From positions 1 to 53,667 of the forward strand of contig JAJDVH010000132.1 in assembly GCA_022826185.1 (NCBI GenBank): 53,667 bases of DNA, given 5' to 3'. Position numbers and translations under genes: made by a program. Under the pieces are notes generated by a model. That model was not told the DNA's origin and did no database searches. It saw only the letters and a list, made by a program, of their open reading frames with translations. Shown here piece by piece: positions 31,147-43,416 of this stretch (the first letter of the stretch is position 1; every line of letters starts with the position of its first letter). This DNA comes from Alphaproteobacteria bacterium. Its GTDB lineage: Bacteria; Pseudomonadota; Alphaproteobacteria; Bin95.

Positions 31147-31581
31147 TCAGCGAAGCAGGGGGTTGCGGGCGCCGAAGCCGGGGAAGCGGCTGAAATCGCG
31201 GTCGGCGGACCAGAGCTGCGTTACGCCATGCGCGACGCAGAGCGCCGCCACGCGGGCATCGTGGACCATCGGCCCCCGAAGCCGTCCGGCCATCAACTGC
31301 TCCTTCAGGACGGTCCAGTGCGTCCCGGTCTCGGTCAGCAATTCCGCGACCGGGGATTCGAGCCAGGCGTCCACCTGGTCGAGGGCTTCCTCCAGGGACG
31401 AAGGCGGATTGTAGATTCCGGGGTGGGTCGCAATGGCGATGAATTCGTGGATGCACGGCCAGGGCAGCCCCCACCGCTCCCGCCCCTCGGCGAGTTCCCG
31501 GATGCGGTAGCGCGCCGGCCCGTGCCATTCCGAGTCCTCCCGGTGGGCATACACCAGGATGTTGGTGTCGACGGCGATCAA
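31147..31581 (-). CDS. vapC: VapC-type PIN-domain ribonuclease toxin
   Basis: The 144-residue protein has the PIN-domain acidic residues in order: D5 in AVDTNILVY, E46 in PCIHEF, D in VHDARVAALC, and D in LWSADRDFSRF. VapC toxins cut specific RNAs and are held by VapB. A TTG start at 31581 overlaps the upstream antitoxin stop (TTGA), giving the family-typical MIAVDTN beginning; no ATG or GTG fits as well. It is the second gene of the vapBC operon. Confidence 0.88.
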   Translation of the reverse strand: MIAVDTNILVYAHREDSEWHGPARYRIRELAEGRERWGLPWPCIHEFIAIATHPGIYNPPSSLEEALDQVDAWLESPVAELLTETGTHWTVLKEQLMAGRLRGPMVHDARVAALCVAHGVTQLWSADRDFSRFPGFGARNPLLR

Positions 31582-31826
31582 CTCCCCCGCCCTTCATAGG
31601 CGGCGCCCCGGATGCGTTCCCAGCCCGCGCCCCGGTAGGCGTCCTGCAAGCCCCGCCCGCGAACGCTGGCGTCCCGCAGCACGAACGGTTCCGGCTCCGT
31701 CCCGGCGGCGCGCAGAACCTCCCGCAAGCCGCGTTCGACCACGGAGCGGAAGGTCACGCCTTCCCGGGCAATATAGGCCTTCACCTCCTCGGCAAGGCCG
31801 TCCGATATTTCCACCGTGGTCTTCAT
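31578..31826 (-). CDS. vapB: VapB-type ribbon-helix-helix antitoxin
   Basis: The 82-residue protein begins MKTTVEISDGLAEEVKAYI, a ribbon-helix-helix N-terminus, then RSVVERGLREVLRA. A C-terminal tail ends near GRGLQDAYRGAGWERIRGAAYEGRG, likely the toxin-wrapping part. It would neutralise the adjacent PIN protein and repress the operon. An alternative ATG lies 15 bases upstream at 31841. A palindrome at 31849-31862 sits just before it. Confidence 0.82.
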   Translation of the reverse strand: MKTTVEISDGLAEEVKAYIAREGVTFRSVVERGLREVLRAAGTEPEPFVLRDASVRGRGLQDAYRGAGWERIRGAAYEGRGS

Positions 31827-31848
31827 ACCGTATGCCCGCATCGTTAAG

Positions 31849-31888
31849 TATGGGTGCCCATATTCAAAGATAGGGGAAACAAGGTCAA
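31849..31888 (-). promoter_or_regulatory. Candidate vapBC promoter and operator
   Basis: TTGACC (31883-31888) can serve as a -35 box, with a weak -10 (GAATAT) 17 bases downstream. Overlapping this end is the inverted repeat TATGGG-TG-CCCATA (31849-31862), a plausible binding site for the RHH antitoxin. Both calls are by eye. Confidence 0.4.
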
Positions 31889-31954
31889 TGCTCCCGTCGA
31901 TGTTGCCAAACAGGCCGCAAACCAATGCACCGCCGACTGGATGATGAATATCGC

Positions 31955-32182
31955 CTACCTGGCTTTCAGAAAATCGTCCACTGAAATATCGGCCTGCTTC
32001 AGGATGGCCCGTAAAGTACCTTCGGGCATTGTGCCGGGATGATTGGGGACCGTGGTGTAGCGGTTGGCTTGTTCACTGAACCAGATTTCATGAGATCCTG
32101 CAGCTTGTCGATCAAACGAGAACCCGAACGACTTCAGGCGCCTGACAACCGTGCGATAGCGGAACCCGGCAAGGCGGCCCAT
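31955..32182 (-). CDS. hicA: HicA-family mRNA interferase toxin
   Basis: The 75-residue protein has the HicA double-stranded-RNA-binding-like fold, with a YRTVVRRLKSFGF helix, the G-S-H31 motif containing the catalytic His, VPNHPG and GTLRAILKQADIS. It cleaves mRNA when not bound by HicB. Its ATG directly abuts the hicB stop (TGA ATG). Local base composition is less GC-rich than in neighbouring metabolic genes. Confidence 0.9.
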   Translation of the reverse strand: MGRLAGFRYRTVVRRLKSFGFSFDRQAAGSHEIWFSEQANRYTTVPNHPGTMPEGTLRAILKQADISVDDFLKAR

Positions 32183-32431
32183 TCAAAGTCCGCCGACCAC
32201 CAGCGGATAATCGAGACTATCGCCAACGGGGATGGGGCCAGTATCGTCTGTTTCCGGCGGGTTGCGCCGTTCGGACCGGGCCTCGAGAAGCTTTCGGGCG
32301 ACATCACGGGCGATTTCCAGCGTTTCGGTAACGGTTCGACCCTGAGCGACCAAGCCCGGTATCTCCTCGGAGGTCGCCAACCAGACGCCTTCCGGCTGTT
32401 TTTCGATATGCAGCTTCACGATTCGCTCCAT
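32183..32431 (-). CDS. hicB: HicB/DUF1902-type antitoxin
   Basis: The 82-residue protein has the partial RNase-H-like HicB core: VKLHIEKQPEGVWLATSEEIPGLVAQG, then TVTETLEIARDVARKLLE. The short form without an added DNA-binding domain matches DUF1902 members. It lies immediately upstream of hicA. An AAGGAGG at 32438-32444 supports the ATG at 32431, and TTGACG - 17 bases - CCTATT upstream is a possible promoter. Confidence 0.85.
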   Translation of the reverse strand: MERIVKLHIEKQPEGVWLATSEEIPGLVAQGRTVTETLEIARDVARKLLEARSERRNPPETDDTGPIPVGDSLDYPLVVGGL

Positions 32432-37073: not shown

Positions 37074-37418
37074 TCAGTCCTCCGTCCAGACGGCGAGCTC
37101 GTGGCCGTCCGGGTCCGTGAAGTGGAAGCGGCGGCCGCCGGGGAAGGCGTAGGCGGCTTTCACGATCCGCCCGCCGGCCTCCTCGATGCGCCGCGCTGCC
37201 GCCTCAAGGTCCCCGCTGTAGAGCACGACCAGCGGGCCGCCCGGCGCGGGGCCGCCTTCCAGCGCGTTGAAGCCGCCCTTCAGGCGCCCGTCCGTGAACT
37301 CCGTGTAGCCGGGGCCGAAATCGGTGAAGCTCCAGCCGAAGGCGCGCCCGTAAAAGGCCTTCGAGCGGGCGGTGTCGGCCACGGCGAACTCGACATAGTC
37401 GATGCACACGGCCGGCAT
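37074..37418 (-). CDS. VOC-superfamily (glyoxalase-like) protein
   Basis: The 114-residue protein has paired beta-alpha-beta-beta-beta units of the vicinal-oxygen-chelate fold: DYVEFAVADTARSKAFYGRAFGWSF at the start, and RRFHFTDPDGHELAVW at the end, where the Glu is a typical metal ligand. Such small VOC proteins include lactoylglutathione lyase relatives and antibiotic-binding proteins; the function is unassigned. It lies four bases from the stop of its minus-strand upstream neighbour, suggesting co-transcription with the MFS gene. Confidence 0.85.
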   Translation of the reverse strand: MPAVCIDYVEFAVADTARSKAFYGRAFGWSFTDFGPGYTEFTDGRLKGGFNALEGGPAPGGPLVVLYSGDLEAAARRIEEAGGRIVKAAYAFPGGRRFHFTDPDGHELAVWTED

Positions 37419-37422
37419 ACCG

Positions 37423-38772
37423 TCACGCCTCGCGGCGGTCGCCTTCCGGGCGCACCCAGGCCATGAGCACGAGTCCGATCGCCAGCAGAGCCAGGATCGG
37501 CACCACGCCGACGCGCTGGCTGCCGGACAGGTCGGTCGCCAGCGCGACGAGGAAGGGAGCGATGAACGAGGTCGCCTTGCCGGTCAGCGCATAGAGGCCG
37601 AACGCCTCCGCCATGCGCTCCCGGTCCGCCTGGTGGACGAGCATGGTGCGGGACGCCGCCTGCAGCGAGCCCGCCGTCGCGCCGATGACGGCGCCGCAGG
37701 CATAGAAGGCGACCATCGGCAGGGAGGAGGGCGCCTCGGCCGTGCCCACGGTGAGGAACAGCACTTCGTGCGGCGCGATGGTCATGATGGCGGCCGTGGC
37801 CACCGTGAGCGCGACGATGTTGACCAGGATCACGGGCTTGGGGCCGCGCCGCACGTCCTGCAGCCCGCCGGCCCAGGCCCCGGCGGCGCCGGCGACGAGG
37901 ATGACGAGGCCGAACACGCCGATCTCGAACAGGCCCCATCCGAGCACGCCGGAAGCGTAGATGCCGCCGAATGTCCCGATGCCCAGTATGGCGTCCCGGT
38001 AGAACATGGAGGCGAGCAGGTAGGCGAGCAGGCTCGGCCGGGACGGCAGGCCGGCGAGCGTGGCCTTCAGGCTGCCCAGGCCCTCCCGGACCACGCCGGC
38101 GGTCGCGACGGCGCGGCGGCTCACATCCGGCGACCAGAGGAAGAAGGGCACCATGAAGACGAGATACCAGAGCGCCGAGAAGGGCCCGGCCGCCCGCGCG
38201 CCCTCTCCGAGCGCCGGGTCGAGGCCCAGGACCGGGGCCACGCCGAGCATCGTCCTGTCCGAGCCCGGGGCCGGCGTCATCAGGCCGAGCACGATGACGA
38301 GCGCCACGAGGCCGCCCCAGTAGCCGAACGCCCAGCCGGACCCCGATATGCGGCCCAGCTCCTCGCGCGGGCCGACTTCCGGAAGCAGCGAGTTGACGAA
38401 AACGGTGGCGATCTCCGCCCCGATCAGCGCCACCGCCAGCAGCACGAGAACCGTCAGCGGGTCGTCCATCCCCGGCGTGGCGAGCCAGAGGCCGGTAACG
38501 CCGACCAGGTAAATCAGCGAGAACGCCAGTATCCACGGCTTTCTCGGCCCCTGCGCGTCCGCGACCGAGCCCAGCACGGGGGCCGAGAGCGCCATCAGCA
38601 CCGAGCCCGCGGCGATCGCATAACCCCATATCGCCTGGCCATCGACCACATTCTCGGCGACGCGGGAGGCGAAATAGGGACCGAAGACGAATGTGGTGAT
38701 GACGGTGTGGAAAGGCTGGTTGGCCCAGTCGAAGAACATCCAGCCCCAAACGCCCTTGCCTCCGGATTTCAT
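37423..38772 (-). CDS. UMF1/Atg22-type MFS transporter
   Basis: The 449-residue protein begins with the W-G-W-M-F-F-D-W-A-N-Q-P-F pattern diagnostic of UMF1 (unknown major facilitator 1)/Vacuole effluxer Atg22-like carriers. It has 12 hydrophobic segments and the loop GSVADAQGPRKPWI after helix 2. Substrates of bacterial members are unknown. The upstream region contains no clear regulator. Confidence 0.86.
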   Translation of the reverse strand: MKSGGKGVWGWMFFDWANQPFHTVITTFVFGPYFASRVAENVVDGQAIWGYAIAAGSVLMALSAPVLGSVADAQGPRKPWILAFSLIYLVGVTGLWLATPGMDDPLTVLVLLAVALIGAEIATVFVNSLLPEVGPREELGRISGSGWAFGYWGGLVALVIVLGLMTPAPGSDRTMLGVAPVLGLDPALGEGARAAGPFSALWYLVFMVPFFLWSPDVSRRAVATAGVVREGLGSLKATLAGLPSRPSLLAYLLASMFYRDAILGIGTFGGIYASGVLGWGLFEIGVFGLVILVAGAAGAWAGGLQDVRRGPKPVILVNIVALTVATAAIMTIAPHEVLFLTVGTAEAPSSLPMVAFYACGAVIGATAGSLQAASRTMLVHQADRERMAEAFGLYALTGKATSFIAPFLVALATDLSGSQRVGVVPILALLAIGLVLMAWVRPEGDRREA

Positions 38773-39552: not shown

Positions 39553-40434
39553 TCAGTCCTTGCGCGGCCGGGCGCTGTAGTCGCCGAAGGGGGCGTCGCG
39601 GGCGGCGGCGGTGCGGCGCATGCCCTGTTCGGCAAGGCTTTCGGCCCAGCGGCGGGCTTCCTCCGTGTGGCGCGTCATGCCGTCGAACAGCGTGCCGAGC
39701 AGTTGCGTCGTTCTCAGGCCCATATTCTCGAAGGCCTGGTTGATGAGCAGCTTGTTGAGCGCGAGCTGGTTGGCCGGAATGTGCTCGAAGCGCCGCGCAT
39801 GGGCCTCCACGCGCTCGTCCAGCTCCTCCGGCGGGCAGACATGGGAGACGAGGCCGATCCGGTGCGCGGTCGCCGCGTCGATGGCGTCCCCGCTCAGCAG
39901 GAACTGCTTGGCGTGCTCCAGCCCGAGGCGATAGACCCAGAGCATGGTGGTCGGCGTGCCGAATATCCGGGACGGCGCATAGCCGATATAGGCGTCGTCG
40001 GCCATGAAGAGCAGGTCGCAGCAGAGCACGAGGTCCGTCGCGCCGCCGACCGCCCAGCCGTGTATCGCGCCCAGCACCGGCTTCGGGCAGTCCCAGATCT
40101 TCATGAACCGCTCGACATTGCGGCCCATGCTGCGGTAGTCGCGCACCGGGTCCCAGGCGCCGGGGCGCGGCTCCGGGCGCGGCGCGTCATAGGGCTGCGA
40201 CCAGCCGGACTCCAGCGACGCGCCGGTCGCCTCCAGGTCGTAGCCGGCCGACAGCGCGCGCCCTTCGCCGCGCAGCACGACGGAGCGCACCGCGCGCGAG
40301 GAGGCGGCGCGGTCGATGGCGTCGGCGACACCCTGCACCAGTTCCTCGGTCAGCGTGTTGAGCCGCTCCGGGCGGTTGAGCGAGACGATAGCGACGCTGC
40401 CGCGTTCCTCGTAGAGGACGACGGAGTCCGCCAC
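39553..40434 (-). CDS. Enoyl-CoA hydratase/isomerase-family protein
   Basis: The 293-residue crotonase-fold protein shows VAIVSLNRPERLNTL, GEGRALSAGYDLE (first oxyanion segment), PVLGAIHGWAVGGATDLVLCCDLLFMADDAYIGY read as the G-G-x-x-L-x-L-x-C-D motif, and HRIGLVSHVCPPEEL. The usual catalytic Glu pair of hydratases is not clearly matched (YAPSRI occupies the second site), so another crotonase reaction is possible. It is the last gene of the selenoprotein operon, seven bases after the glutaredoxin gene. Confidence 0.84.
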   Translation of the reverse strand: MADSVVLYEERGSVAIVSLNRPERLNTLTEELVQGVADAIDRAASSRAVRSVVLRGEGRALSAGYDLEATGASLESGWSQPYDAPRPEPRPGAWDPVRDYRSMGRNVERFMKIWDCPKPVLGAIHGWAVGGATDLVLCCDLLFMADDAYIGYAPSRIFGTPTTMLWVYRLGLEHAKQFLLSGDAIDAATAHRIGLVSHVCPPEELDERVEAHARRFEHIPANQLALNKLLINQAFENMGLRTTQLLGTLFDGMTRHTEEARRWAESLAEQGMRRTAAARDAPFGDYSARPRKD

Positions 40435-40441
40435 CGCGCCC

Positions 40442-40690
40442 TCAGTCGAGCCCGAGCGCCCGGTCCAGCGCCTCGCGGGTCAGCCCGTCGCCGACGAGGA
40501 AGGTCCCGGCCACCTCGACGGCCGGCGTTCCGCGGATGCGGGCGGCGTCGAGGCGGTCCTGGGCCTCCTCGTCCATCATCAGGTCGCGCCGGGTGAAGGC
40601 GACGCCGCGCGATTCCAGGTAGCGTTTGATCTGCTCGCAGGGCGCGCAGAGCGGCGTGGTGTAGAGCGTGACCTCGGGCGCGGCCGCCAT
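40442..40690 (-). CDS. Glutaredoxin-family protein
   Basis: The 82-residue thioredoxin-fold protein has the redox motif C-A-P-C within LYTTPLCAPCEQIKRYLES, then the cis-Pro in GTPAVEVAGTFLVGD. It is the size of class-I-like glutaredoxins. It begins five bases after the stop of the selenoprotein-candidate gene, making it a likely dedicated reductant for the UxxC centre of that protein; that pairing is inference. Confidence 0.87.
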   Translation of the reverse strand: MAAAPEVTLYTTPLCAPCEQIKRYLESRGVAFTRRDLMMDEEAQDRLDAARIRGTPAVEVAGTFLVGDGLTREALDRALGLD

Positions 40691-40695
40691 GGCGC

Positions 40696-41580
40696 TCACA
40701 CCTTGCCCGCCGCGCGGAGCTGGCGGTATTCCTCCTTGCGCGCCATCCATTCGGCGTGCGTGGCTTCGTCCTGCCAGGGCTGCTCGGCGGTGAACACGAG
40801 CCGCTTCCAGTCCTCGCCGGCCCGCCAGCGGAAGCCGGCCTCGCGGGTGGTGCGCGGTCCCTCCGCCTCCTCCAGCAGGTCGAGCGCCATCTGGAAGATC
40901 GCGCGCTGCTGGTCCGTGTCCCAGGGCTCGCCGCAGGGGCTGCCGAGCGGGAAATCGGTGAAGACATAGCGGGCGACGCCGCAATGCTCGACGATGTCGC
41001 GCGCCGCCCCGATCACCACGGTCGGGATGCCCGCCGCCTCGATATGCCTGCTTATCAGACTCACGGTCTGATGGCAGACGGGTCAGACGGGCACCATGAG
41101 CAGCGCGTCGATGCCGTCCTCGCGGCACCAGGCCAGCGCCTTGGGCGCCTCCTCGGTCATCACCTTGCGCTTGCTGTAATTGTTGTAGCAGCCATAAAGC
41201 CGGTCCGGGATGCCGGCGACCCGGCCGTCGGCCACCGCCTCGCGCAGCCGGTCCACCGGGTAGTAGGCGTTGACGTCGTCCAGATGGGTGGCGAAGCGGT
41301 CGAAGGACCTTGTGCGGCTGTAGAGCTTCTCCGTCGGCGTGTCGGCGGCGAAGGAATAGACGCCCCGGAAGTCCTCCTCGACCACGGGGTTTTCTTCCGT
41401 CTCCGGGTCGTAGCGCACCGCGATCTCGCTGGTGCCGATCAGCCCGACGCGGCATTGCGAAAGCGGCTTGTCGAGGCGCGCGAACGGCGCATCCTCGAAA
41501 TGCGCCCACTCATAGGCCTTCTCATAGCCCTGCCGGATATAGTCGTCGCGCGTGCGGTCGATATAGCGCACCGGTTCCAT
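40696..41580 (-). CDS. GrdB-like (glycine/betaine/sarcosine reductase selenoprotein B family) protein with in-frame UGA, likely selenoprotein
   Basis: The coding sequence is read through an in-frame TGA at 41083-41085 (codon 166), giving 294 residues. It begins MEPVRYIDRTRDDYIRQGYE, has CRVGLIGTSEIAVRYDP, and just before the TGA reads ALLMVPV. After it come P-V-C-H-Q-T-V-S-L, GIPTVVIGAARDIVEHCGV and FTDFPLGSPCGEPWD. The motif is therefore U-P-V-C, where relatives in this family have C or U in a UxxC/CxxC redox pair. The downstream half is fully coherent and ends right before the glutaredoxin gene. A SECIS-like hairpin starts six bases after the TGA. The enzymatic substrate is unknown. A nonsense mutation is the alternative, but conservation on both sides and the hairpin argue against it. 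selA, selB, selC and selD must be found elsewhere in the genome. Confidence 0.85.
41048..41085 (-). promoter_or_regulatory. UGA codon with bacterial-type SECIS hairpin
   Basis: Downstream of UGA (41083-41085) the mRNA can fold as follows. CUGC (41074-41077) pairs with GCAG (41048-41051). AUCAGAC (41066-41072) pairs with GUCUGAU (41054-41060). The apical loop is CGUGA. Seventeen bases separate UGA and loop, inside the range known for bacterial SECIS elements, and a G is among the first two loop bases as required by SelB recognition rules. Confidence 0.85.
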
Positions 41581-41670
41581 GCACCGCCTCCCGGTAATCT
41601 CTGCCCGCCCGATTAGACGCCCCGCGCCGGCCCCCGGTCAAGCCGGGCCGGAGCAGTCTGCCGGGAAGCA

Positions 41671-43416
41671 TCAGGCTCGTCCGGAGCCTTGCCTGTATTC
41701 GAGCAGCGCCGACCGCCCGAGGATATCGACAATCCGCACCGTCAGTTCGACGCCGTTGGCGTCCATGAGGTTCAAGTCTTCGCCCGGCGCAAAATGGACC
41801 GGTTGTTGCCGTCCTCCGTCGATAGTGATGTTGGAGGCATACAGATAGGTGCGGTCAAGCGTGTCCAGTATGGGATTCAACCGCCCGCTGAGGCCGGGCA
41901 GCACACCCGTTGCTTCCGGGAACACGACTGCTCCGCCCGAGGGCAGACTTTCGAGTTCCAGGGCCAACGCCCCCCGAGCCGGCGCCCATTCCCTTTCAAC
42001 ATACGCAGCATGTCCCCTTGCGGCGGCATAGACGGTCATCGGCAGGTGCGTGCTGTGCAGGTCGAGAACGGCTTCGCCGGCTTGGTCGGTGGACGCGCGC
42101 ACCCATGTCTTGTTCGGGAACAGCGCGAGGACATCGACTCCCGATAGAGGCCGTCCGGCGGCATGGGCGGTCACAACCGCTCGCGCCGGAGAAGGTTCGA
42201 GATCGGCGGCGGGAATGACGAGGTTGAGGTTCGTGTCGTCCACCAGCCGGTAAACGGGAAAGCGGCCGGACGTCGCGCGCGTTGCGCGCAGAATGACCGG
42301 CACGCCGTCGCCGCGCCGTTCCATGAGGAATTGCCGGCTCTCCGACCCTGGAATGCCCGCGACCGGCATACGGCCGAAAACCGAGGCGATAACCTCATTT
42401 CGGGTCGCCTGGCTGGCTTCCATGCCGGCAATGGTCATGCCGTTGGGAAGAGCGCCGGGAGACTCGATCTCCAGCCGGTCCTCGAACATGGACAGGCGAA
42501 TGCGGCGGCCGCTCACGGAATAGTCCCTGTGGGCGACGGCGTTGACCACCGCCTCGAATACCGCTTCCACGCTGTATTGGGGCAAATCCTCGCGACCCGG
42601 GCTCTTTCTGGCAGCAACGCGCATGTTTCGAGCGGCAAAGCGCACCGCGTCAGCAATCTGGCGATGCAGCGGCCCCGCTATCTCCTGGGCGTCGAGTTGC
42701 TCCGATGTGCGGTCCGGACCCCGATAGCGGGTTGCCGTCACCCTGGCATTCGGGAACCAGTCTTCCGGTTTCTCGGCGCACAAGAGCACGCCGGCCACGG
42801 TGGCGCGCAACGCATCGTGCTCGTCGAGGGTCAGCAGGCGCAAATTGCGCAATGCCTGCTCCGGTTCCGCCGCAGCCGACACACTCAACAGCGGCTTCCA
42901 GAGGCCCTCGCTCAGGGTCGCAAAACCGGTGCCCGCCACCGGCTGTTCGTCGAACCAGAGAAACCGCGACTGCCCGCGCCGCTGCGCCAGCCGCAAGGCC
43001 TGGTCGCTCGTCATGCGCCGTTTGGAACTGCCCATCCTGCGATAGCTGCCGCCGGGGCTGTTGTGCAGGGCGTAGCCCGCTGCAATGGAAACGGCAAGAA
43101 CCATCCGGCCGTCCAGCTCGTGGCGGTAAGTGTCCGCCTCAATTTGCGGCTGGATCGAATCGTTGCAGACCTCGACGACGCATCGCTCAAGGGCGTCGAG
43201 CTGCGCACGGGTCATGCCCTGGACCTGCCCGGCGTCCGTGACGCCGAACAATATGACGCCGCCTTCGCCATTGGCGAAGGCAGCCAGTTCGTCCGCCAGG
43301 TCCGTGCGGCGCGGAGCGACCGGGCGGTTGTTGCGGAATTCTACCTGCTTGAACTCCCAGAGGCTGTCCTCGCCCAGTCGAAGCTGTTGTCCGATATCCG
43401 CAGCGCTGACTCTCAT
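41671..43416 (-). CDS. AlbA_2 (Schlafen-type) / GHKL-like ATP-binding protein with C-terminal beta-rich extension
   Basis: The 581-residue protein has an N-terminal AlbA_2 domain (about 10-140: LWEFKQVEF, TDLADELAAFANGEGGVILFGV). An ATP-binding HATPase_c_4-like region follows (about 270-380), with the N-box VFEAVVNAVAHRDYSVSGRRI and IESPGALPNGMT. From about residue 395 a beta-rich extension carries a carboxypeptidase-regulatory-like stretch (AAGRPLSGVDVLALFPNKT). AlbA_2/ATPase proteins include regulators and phage-defence components. It overlaps the mini-MNT frame by four bases (ATGA), so it belongs to the HEPN/MNT operon. Confidence 0.82.
   Translation of the reverse strand: MRVSAADIGQQLRLGEDSLWEFKQVEFRNNRPVAPRRTDLADELAAFANGEGGVILFGVTDAGQVQGMTRAQLDALERCVVEVCNDSIQPQIEADTYRHELDGRMVLAVSIAAGYALHNSPGGSYRRMGSSKRRMTSDQALRLAQRRGQSRFLWFDEQPVAGTGFATLSEGLWKPLLSVSAAAEPEQALRNLRLLTLDEHDALRATVAGVLLCAEKPEDWFPNARVTATRYRGPDRTSEQLDAQEIAGPLHRQIADAVRFAARNMRVAARKSPGREDLPQYSVEAVFEAVVNAVAHRDYSVSGRRIRLSMFEDRLEIESPGALPNGMTIAGMEASQATRNEVIASVFGRMPVAGIPGSESRQFLMERRGDGVPVILRATRATSGRFPVYRLVDDTNLNLVIPAADLEPSPARAVVTAHAAGRPLSGVDVLALFPNKTWVRASTDQAGEAVLDLHSTHLPMTVYAAARGHAAYVEREWAPARGALALELESLPSGGAVVFPEATGVLPGLSGRLNPILDTLDRTYLYASNITIDGGRQQPVHFAPGEDLNLMDANGVELTVRIVDILGRSALLEYRQGSGRA

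Follow-up and report, generated by a model that had tools for sequence, protein, structure and literature searches.

A UGA-interrupted alphaproteobacterial gene is predicted to encode an orphan PrdB-like selenoprotein with a UxxC motif and a glutaredoxin neighbour

The window analysed here, the whole 53,667-nucleotide stretch of contig JAJDVH010000132.1 from an alphaproteobacterial genome, contains a minus-strand reading frame (41580-40696) that ends in TGA and is broken by a single internal stop, another TGA at codon 166 (41085-41083). The question raised by this locus is whether codon 166 terminates translation or specifies selenocysteine (Sec) and, in the latter case, what kind of protein is made. 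The original prediction had described two coherent halves in one frame, parted only by the TGA at codon 166, with the motif U-P-V-C at that site; translation of 41580-40696 with TGA read as U agrees on both points (...LLMVPV-U-PVCHQTVSL..., containing UPVCHQ). As it had also anticipated for gene callers, the mechanical list of open reading frames splits the gene into a 165-aa fragment (41083-41580) and a separate 122-aa C-terminal frame (40696-41064). The features of the gene are given below, with the evidence for each in brackets.

40696-41580, minus strand: predicted coding sequence of a PrdB/GrdB-like selenoprotein of 294 residues with Sec at 166 (TGA=U translation, TIGR04483 match, orthologues, pN/pS)
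41083-41085, minus strand: in-frame UGA, putative Sec codon 166, encoding the U of UPVC (sequence; TGA or TGC/TGT in 157/157 aligned relatives; PrdB counterpart)
41046-41079, minus strand: SECIS-type hairpin with loop CGUGA at 41065-41061 (fold energy; apical helix kept in Sec relatives)
41587-41592, minus strand: GGGAGG, likely ribosome-binding site, 6 nt 5' of the ATG (sequence)

Direct orthologues bearing the TGA were found in four further congeneric genomes (95-98% identical), and two paralogues in the same genome carry a single TGA at the matching site (C156, 45% identity, AANUPVCHQTVSL; C97, 31%, VPVUPNCTRAV); with the TGA recurring in this way, a sequencing error is very unlikely. At least three TGA-cut proteins of this kind are encoded in the genome, and a mechanical gene call would take the TGA for a stop in each of them. 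The third paralogue (L003) is of a longer type of ~430 aa. Across 157 distinct relatives the codon at the Sec site is TGA in 67, TGC in 73 and TGT in 17, and nothing else, in ratios that are not natural frequencies because the pattern of the named-genome scan, CPVCHQ[TS]V, could match Cys forms only. The alignment of homologues at codon 166 that had been proposed as a check on the Sec reading gave Cys or Sec in all 157. Among five congeneric copies pN/pS is 0.09 in the part 3' of the TGA vs 0.145 in the N-terminal half, and the 3' part therefore appears to be both translated and selected.

A selenoprotein gene implies a decoding apparatus, and the original prediction had pointed to selA, selB, selC and selD as the genes to look for. 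In the window genome (4.48 Mb, 279 contigs) selA, selB, selD and a tRNA-Sec(UCA) gene are all present: profile scores are 538 bits for selA, 435 bits for selB and 281 bits for selD, and the tRNA-Sec gene (anticodon tca) scores 72.6 bits, each above its curated cut-off. The selA gene lies directly 5' of selB. In other Alphaproteobacteria the tRNA-Sec gene has been reported to be nested in selB (PMC8124441); here tRNA-Sec and selAB lie on different contigs (L013, L005; C63, C232), so tRNA-Sec is not nested in selB. Across genomes, selA was detected in 29 of the 33 with a TGA copy vs 0 of the 9 with Cys copies only (Fisher p 1.6e-6, a value that treats related genomes as independent and so overstates significance, although all tests point the same way). 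The four TGA-copy genomes in which selA was not detected are G003, G012, G024 and G324; of these, two have a completeness of 77-83%, one shows 9% contamination, and G324 has a completeness of 95%. As a separate observation, in four genomes from other families (G066:C48, G047:C4, G114:C5, G080:C80) a member of the ~430-aa type is located ~3-9 kb from selA.

Bacterial SECIS elements are in general hairpins just 3' of the UGA with a small apical loop containing G, as described in PMC1088965. Folding of the 43 nt from the TGA yields a hairpin at 41079-41046 of -17.7 kcal/mol (z -3.9), an energy matched by 1 of 200 shuffled sequences. Its upper stem of 7 bp is closed by a CGUGA loop at a UGA-to-loop distance of 17 nt and stands on a lower stem of 6 bp. 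The hairpin of the original prediction thus stands in its upper stem, loop and distance, whereas its lower stem has 6 bp rather than 4. Among relatives only a 5-bp apical helix is conserved; the window copy's lower stem is not. This apical helix is intact in 62 of 67 Sec forms vs 4 of 90 Cys forms among the 157 distinct relatives, and in a non-redundant set all five apical pairs are formed in 40/41 Sec vs 2/45 Cys forms; when one side of the helix was slid by 1-3 bases as a control, only 0-3 of the 67 Sec forms pair. Compensatory changes occur within the helix, with G-C replaced by A-U in L136, L137 and L029 and, in the third paralogue's type, A-U, G-C, A-U replaced by G-C, C-G, G-C. Codon choice follows the same division in the non-redundant set: the Val codon in the SECIS loop is GTG in 40/41 Sec vs 7/41 Cys forms, and the Ser codon is AGT in 31/31 Sec vs 5/35 Cys forms. 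Third-position entropy drops to 0.0-0.2 in Sec forms alone, and there only at codons 6-9 downstream of the UGA. Comparison among the relatives shows selection on UGA166 as a putative Sec codon with its SECIS. A genome-wide search with a UGA + CGUGAG pattern recovered both UxxC copies; with 37 matches vs 19 in a reversed control, it lacked the specificity to identify further selenoproteins.

On the phylogenetic tree (89 rows), Sec and Cys have replaced each other 11 times by parsimony, with at least 7 changes forced by well supported branches. The closest Cys relative, L053:9995-10876 (53%), is interrupted by a TAA at about codon 90, but much of its apical SECIS sequence is retained and a glutaredoxin gene still comes next; either Sec gave way to Cys recently in a gene that is now decaying, or the metagenome-assembled genome contains errors or a misassembly, and we give L053 little weight on account of the TAA and the half-kept hairpin. 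A side branch with TGA and SECIS reads U-P-L-D-H-Q-T-V-G, the resolving Cys having become Asp (L157:14067-14813; Sec codons at L158 13890, L159 7559, L161 7875, L167 2592 and L180 2770), and in G199, G292 and G369 a UPLD copy lies 5-7 kb from a UxxC copy. TAG was considered as an alternative Sec codon, as two relatives have an in-frame TAG, and was rejected: the Sec site itself is Cys in L043 and TGA in L052.

In the mechanism that we propose for decoding, SelB would bring Sec-tRNA(UCA) to UGA166, directed by the SECIS hairpin at 41079-41046; that UGA166 is recoded as Sec in this way seems to us almost certain from the comparative evidence. The idea that a changed code or leaky read-through puts a different amino acid, such as Trp, at the UGA would likewise leave the frame open, but homologues have Cys and never Trp, tRNA-Sec and SelA/SelB are present and ordinary frames, that of the selenoprotein included, still end in TGA, so that its probability is close to nil. 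Scarcely more credible is a pseudogene stop, an assembly error or a functional 165-residue fragment: any of these would look alike in one genome, where a frame with one internal stop is all that is seen, but the same TGA is found in four congeneric genomes, in two paralogues and in dozens of relatives, the downstream part is under purifying selection (0.09) and the SECIS is kept only together with TGA. The selenoprotein reading of the original prediction is thus upheld by the Sec machinery of the genome, by homologues with only Cys or Sec at the codon and by the recurrent TGA. We regard it as very probable that the gene encodes a genuine Sec protein whose redox site is UxxC, a judgement that covers the site and not the substrate.

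To which family this protein belongs is less straightforward. The best named family is PrdB (TIGR04483), with 99 bits (E 2.7e-28) over residues 33-240 and a cut-off of 300 bits, and Peptoclostridium acidaminophilum PrdB has its own TGA in UGTCH at the site matching UPVCH of the window protein. Homology to GrdB/GrdF/GrdH (PF07355, TIGR01917/01918) is weak and limited to the C-terminal part around UxxC, at 27-35 bits: GrdH gives 35 bits vs a cut-off of 775, the other GrdB-type models 27-30 bits and TIGR01917 among them 27 bits vs 602. No Pfam model, including GRDB (PF07355), matches the selenoprotein at E 0.001. The assignment to the GrdB family in the original prediction therefore has to be revised, PrdB being nearer (99 vs at most 35 bits) and the score lying below the curated cut-off of either family. 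Unlike PrdB, the window protein is ~55 residues longer, and its gene has a glutaredoxin neighbour rather than prd genes. GrdB has the motif UxxCxxC (PMC13188914) and a profile of ~430 residues; the window protein instead reads UPVCHQT, with Thr172 at the place of the second GrdB Cys. Profile searches of the genome gave no match to GrdA or PrdA, with controls that held no positive genome for either, and PrdC matches only below cut-off; GrdA and PrdA are probably absent from the genome. Because the scores are far under the PrdB and GrdB cut-offs and neither PrdA nor GrdA was detected, the protein is, as judged from its sequence, an orphan PrdB-like selenoprotein. These same results bear on the reading of the protein as a genuine D-proline reductase or glycine/betaine/sarcosine reductase subunit, acting with a pyruvoyl partner (PrdA/GrdE) in Stickland fermentation. 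Such a role would fit a best match to PrdB over 200 residues with Sec at the homologous site in UxxCH, but it is very improbable given the shortfall against both sets of cut-offs, the lack of a Pfam GRDB match, the results for PrdA, GrdA and PrdC given above and the neighbours seen, none of which is a pyruvoyl partner.

Relatives of the orphan PrdB-like protein are common in the class: 30 of 385 genomes in an even sample hold one at E <=1e-30, and the suggestion that this form is unusual in an alphaproteobacterium is not borne out. Relatives ~40% identical occur in Roseomonas and on Haematobacter plasmids, where NCBI names them 'glycine/sarcosine/betaine reductase selenoprotein B family protein' and, in contrast to the split window gene, annotates them as whole genes. 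PrdB and GrdB are among the commonest bacterial selenoproteins (PMC9312934). The available text of PMC1088965 and PMC2398784 describes UxxC 'PrdB' selenoproteins, with Cys homologues, as abundant in Sargasso Sea and Global Ocean Sampling (GOS) metagenomes (42 and 235 sequences), the GOS 'PrdB' being defined as pfam07355, and mentions neither partners nor operons for them; likened by these descriptions, the marine proteins and the window protein probably belong to the same broad group. UxxC 'PrdB' selenoproteins are hence already known from marine metagenomes, and the window protein is a further member. A GrdB-like selenoprotein has also been proposed outside classic glycine reduction in the fluoroacetate reductase FarB/FarE of Cloacibacillus porcorum (PMC10838667), which differs in coming from an anaerobe and in having a GrdE-like partner and a radical-SAM protein.

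The genes that follow the selenoprotein gene are listed here.

40442-40699, minus strand: glutaredoxin (CAPC), starting from GTG 40699 or ATG 40690 (PF00462, 45.5 bits)
39553-40434, minus strand: enoyl-CoA hydratase/isomerase family protein, next in the apparent operon (PF00378, 113 bits)
37423-38772, minus strand: MFS transporter (ATG22/UMF1-like), further downstream, link uncertain (PF11700, 117 bits)
37074-37418, minus strand: Glyoxalase/VOC domain protein, further downstream, link uncertain (PF00903, 52.9 bits)

The possible GTG start of the glutaredoxin gene overlaps the selenoprotein stop by 4 nt, and the gap between the two genes is -4 to +3 nt in the congeners, L149, L150 and L053 (clade A); L028 has a glutaredoxin gene in the matching place. 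In clade A, to which the window gene belongs, a glutaredoxin gene is thus the usual next gene, but the clade A members L133, L134 and L135 have none there, so the partner is not obligatory. An enoyl-CoA hydratase gene stands beside the selenoprotein-glutaredoxin pair in five congeneric genomes, a conservation seen only within the genus. In the sister clade, which holds the type of the second paralogue, a family III CoA-transferase gene lies on the same strand at 22 loci (14 Sec, 8 Cys), directly adjacent in 17 of the 22, and genes for acyl-CoA dehydrogenase or enoyl-CoA hydratase turn up repeatedly nearby. The conserved neighbours of the Bradyrhizobium Cys copies were set aside, as they look like ordinary synteny and hold no functional clue. 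Directly upstream of the window selenoprotein gene, 41671-43416 on the minus strand encodes a protein with Schlafen/AlbA_2 and RecG-like C-terminal domains.

In an AlphaFold2 model built from 80 sequences (mean pLDDT 93.8), Sec166 sits between a strand (159-163) and a helix (167-182). A PDB sequence search with the profile returned no solved relative, and Foldseek with VIA-align against the PDB found only a general Rossmann/periplasmic-binding-type likeness and no close solved relative; the best fold match (Z 8.7, rmsd 3.3 over 138 residues, to a LacI-type core) is in the range of common arrangements. From the lack of a close solved relative it does not follow that the fold is novel. Sec166 and Cys169 would make up a UxxC redox pair placed at the N-terminal end of a helix, within a Rossmann/flavodoxin-like domain that has PrdB as a relative, an assignment that we consider highly likely in view of the PrdB homology. 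In the cycle we envisage, Sec166 would reduce or cleave the substrate, a selenenyl-sulfide would then form with Cys169, and the glutaredoxin encoded by the adjacent gene would reset the pair at the expense of glutathione; the chances for and against this cycle seem about equal. The weakest step is the substrate, which might tentatively be a small carboxylic acid, free or as its CoA thioester, in which a carbon-heteroatom bond can be reduced, a suggestion drawn by analogy from PrdB/GrdB chemistry, the enoyl-CoA hydratase neighbour and the CoA-transferase of the sister clade.

UxxC together with an adjacent CAPC glutaredoxin would equally suit redox defence, and the protein could be a generic thiol-disulfide or peroxide-reducing enzyme that cleaves no C-X bond. 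We nevertheless hold this to be unlikely: the homology is to substrate reductases, residues far from UxxC (D102, P108, E181, R204, D209, G213, G217 and Q225) show little or no variation, as in an enzyme that binds a substrate, and the sister clade is accompanied by CoA-transferase, acyl-CoA dehydrogenase and enoyl-CoA hydratase genes. A broader picture is somewhat speculative though conceivable: PrdB-like selenoproteins may have diversified into stand-alone selenoenzymes of non-Stickland bacteria that need no pyruvoyl partner and act reductively on acids or CoA thioesters. One clade would use a dedicated glutaredoxin as electron source, and the UPLD branch would do without the resolving Cys. 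Related UxxC 'PrdB' proteins are among the most abundant selenoproteins in ocean metagenomes, and we found no function, solved structure or fitting curated family for them; a literature search on GrdB-like and PrdB-like proteins in Alphaproteobacteria returned no functional study. As far as the literature was searched, there is no earlier description of the gene neighbourhoods with glutaredoxin and CoA-transferase, of several copies in one genome or of the UPLD branch, and the direct glutaredoxin and CoA-transferase neighbours offer testable handles on the electron donor and the substrate.

Two further observations concern other genes. A gene of the SelO type (protein adenylyltransferase) adjoins a family member in Roseomonas haemaphysalidis (L190:5824-7296), and another, SelO-like by appearance, lies downstream of L167:2335 in G008. 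Elsewhere in the window, 31147-32431 on the minus strand holds small genes that include, by appearance only, one for a PIN-domain-like product and a HicA/HicB-like pair.
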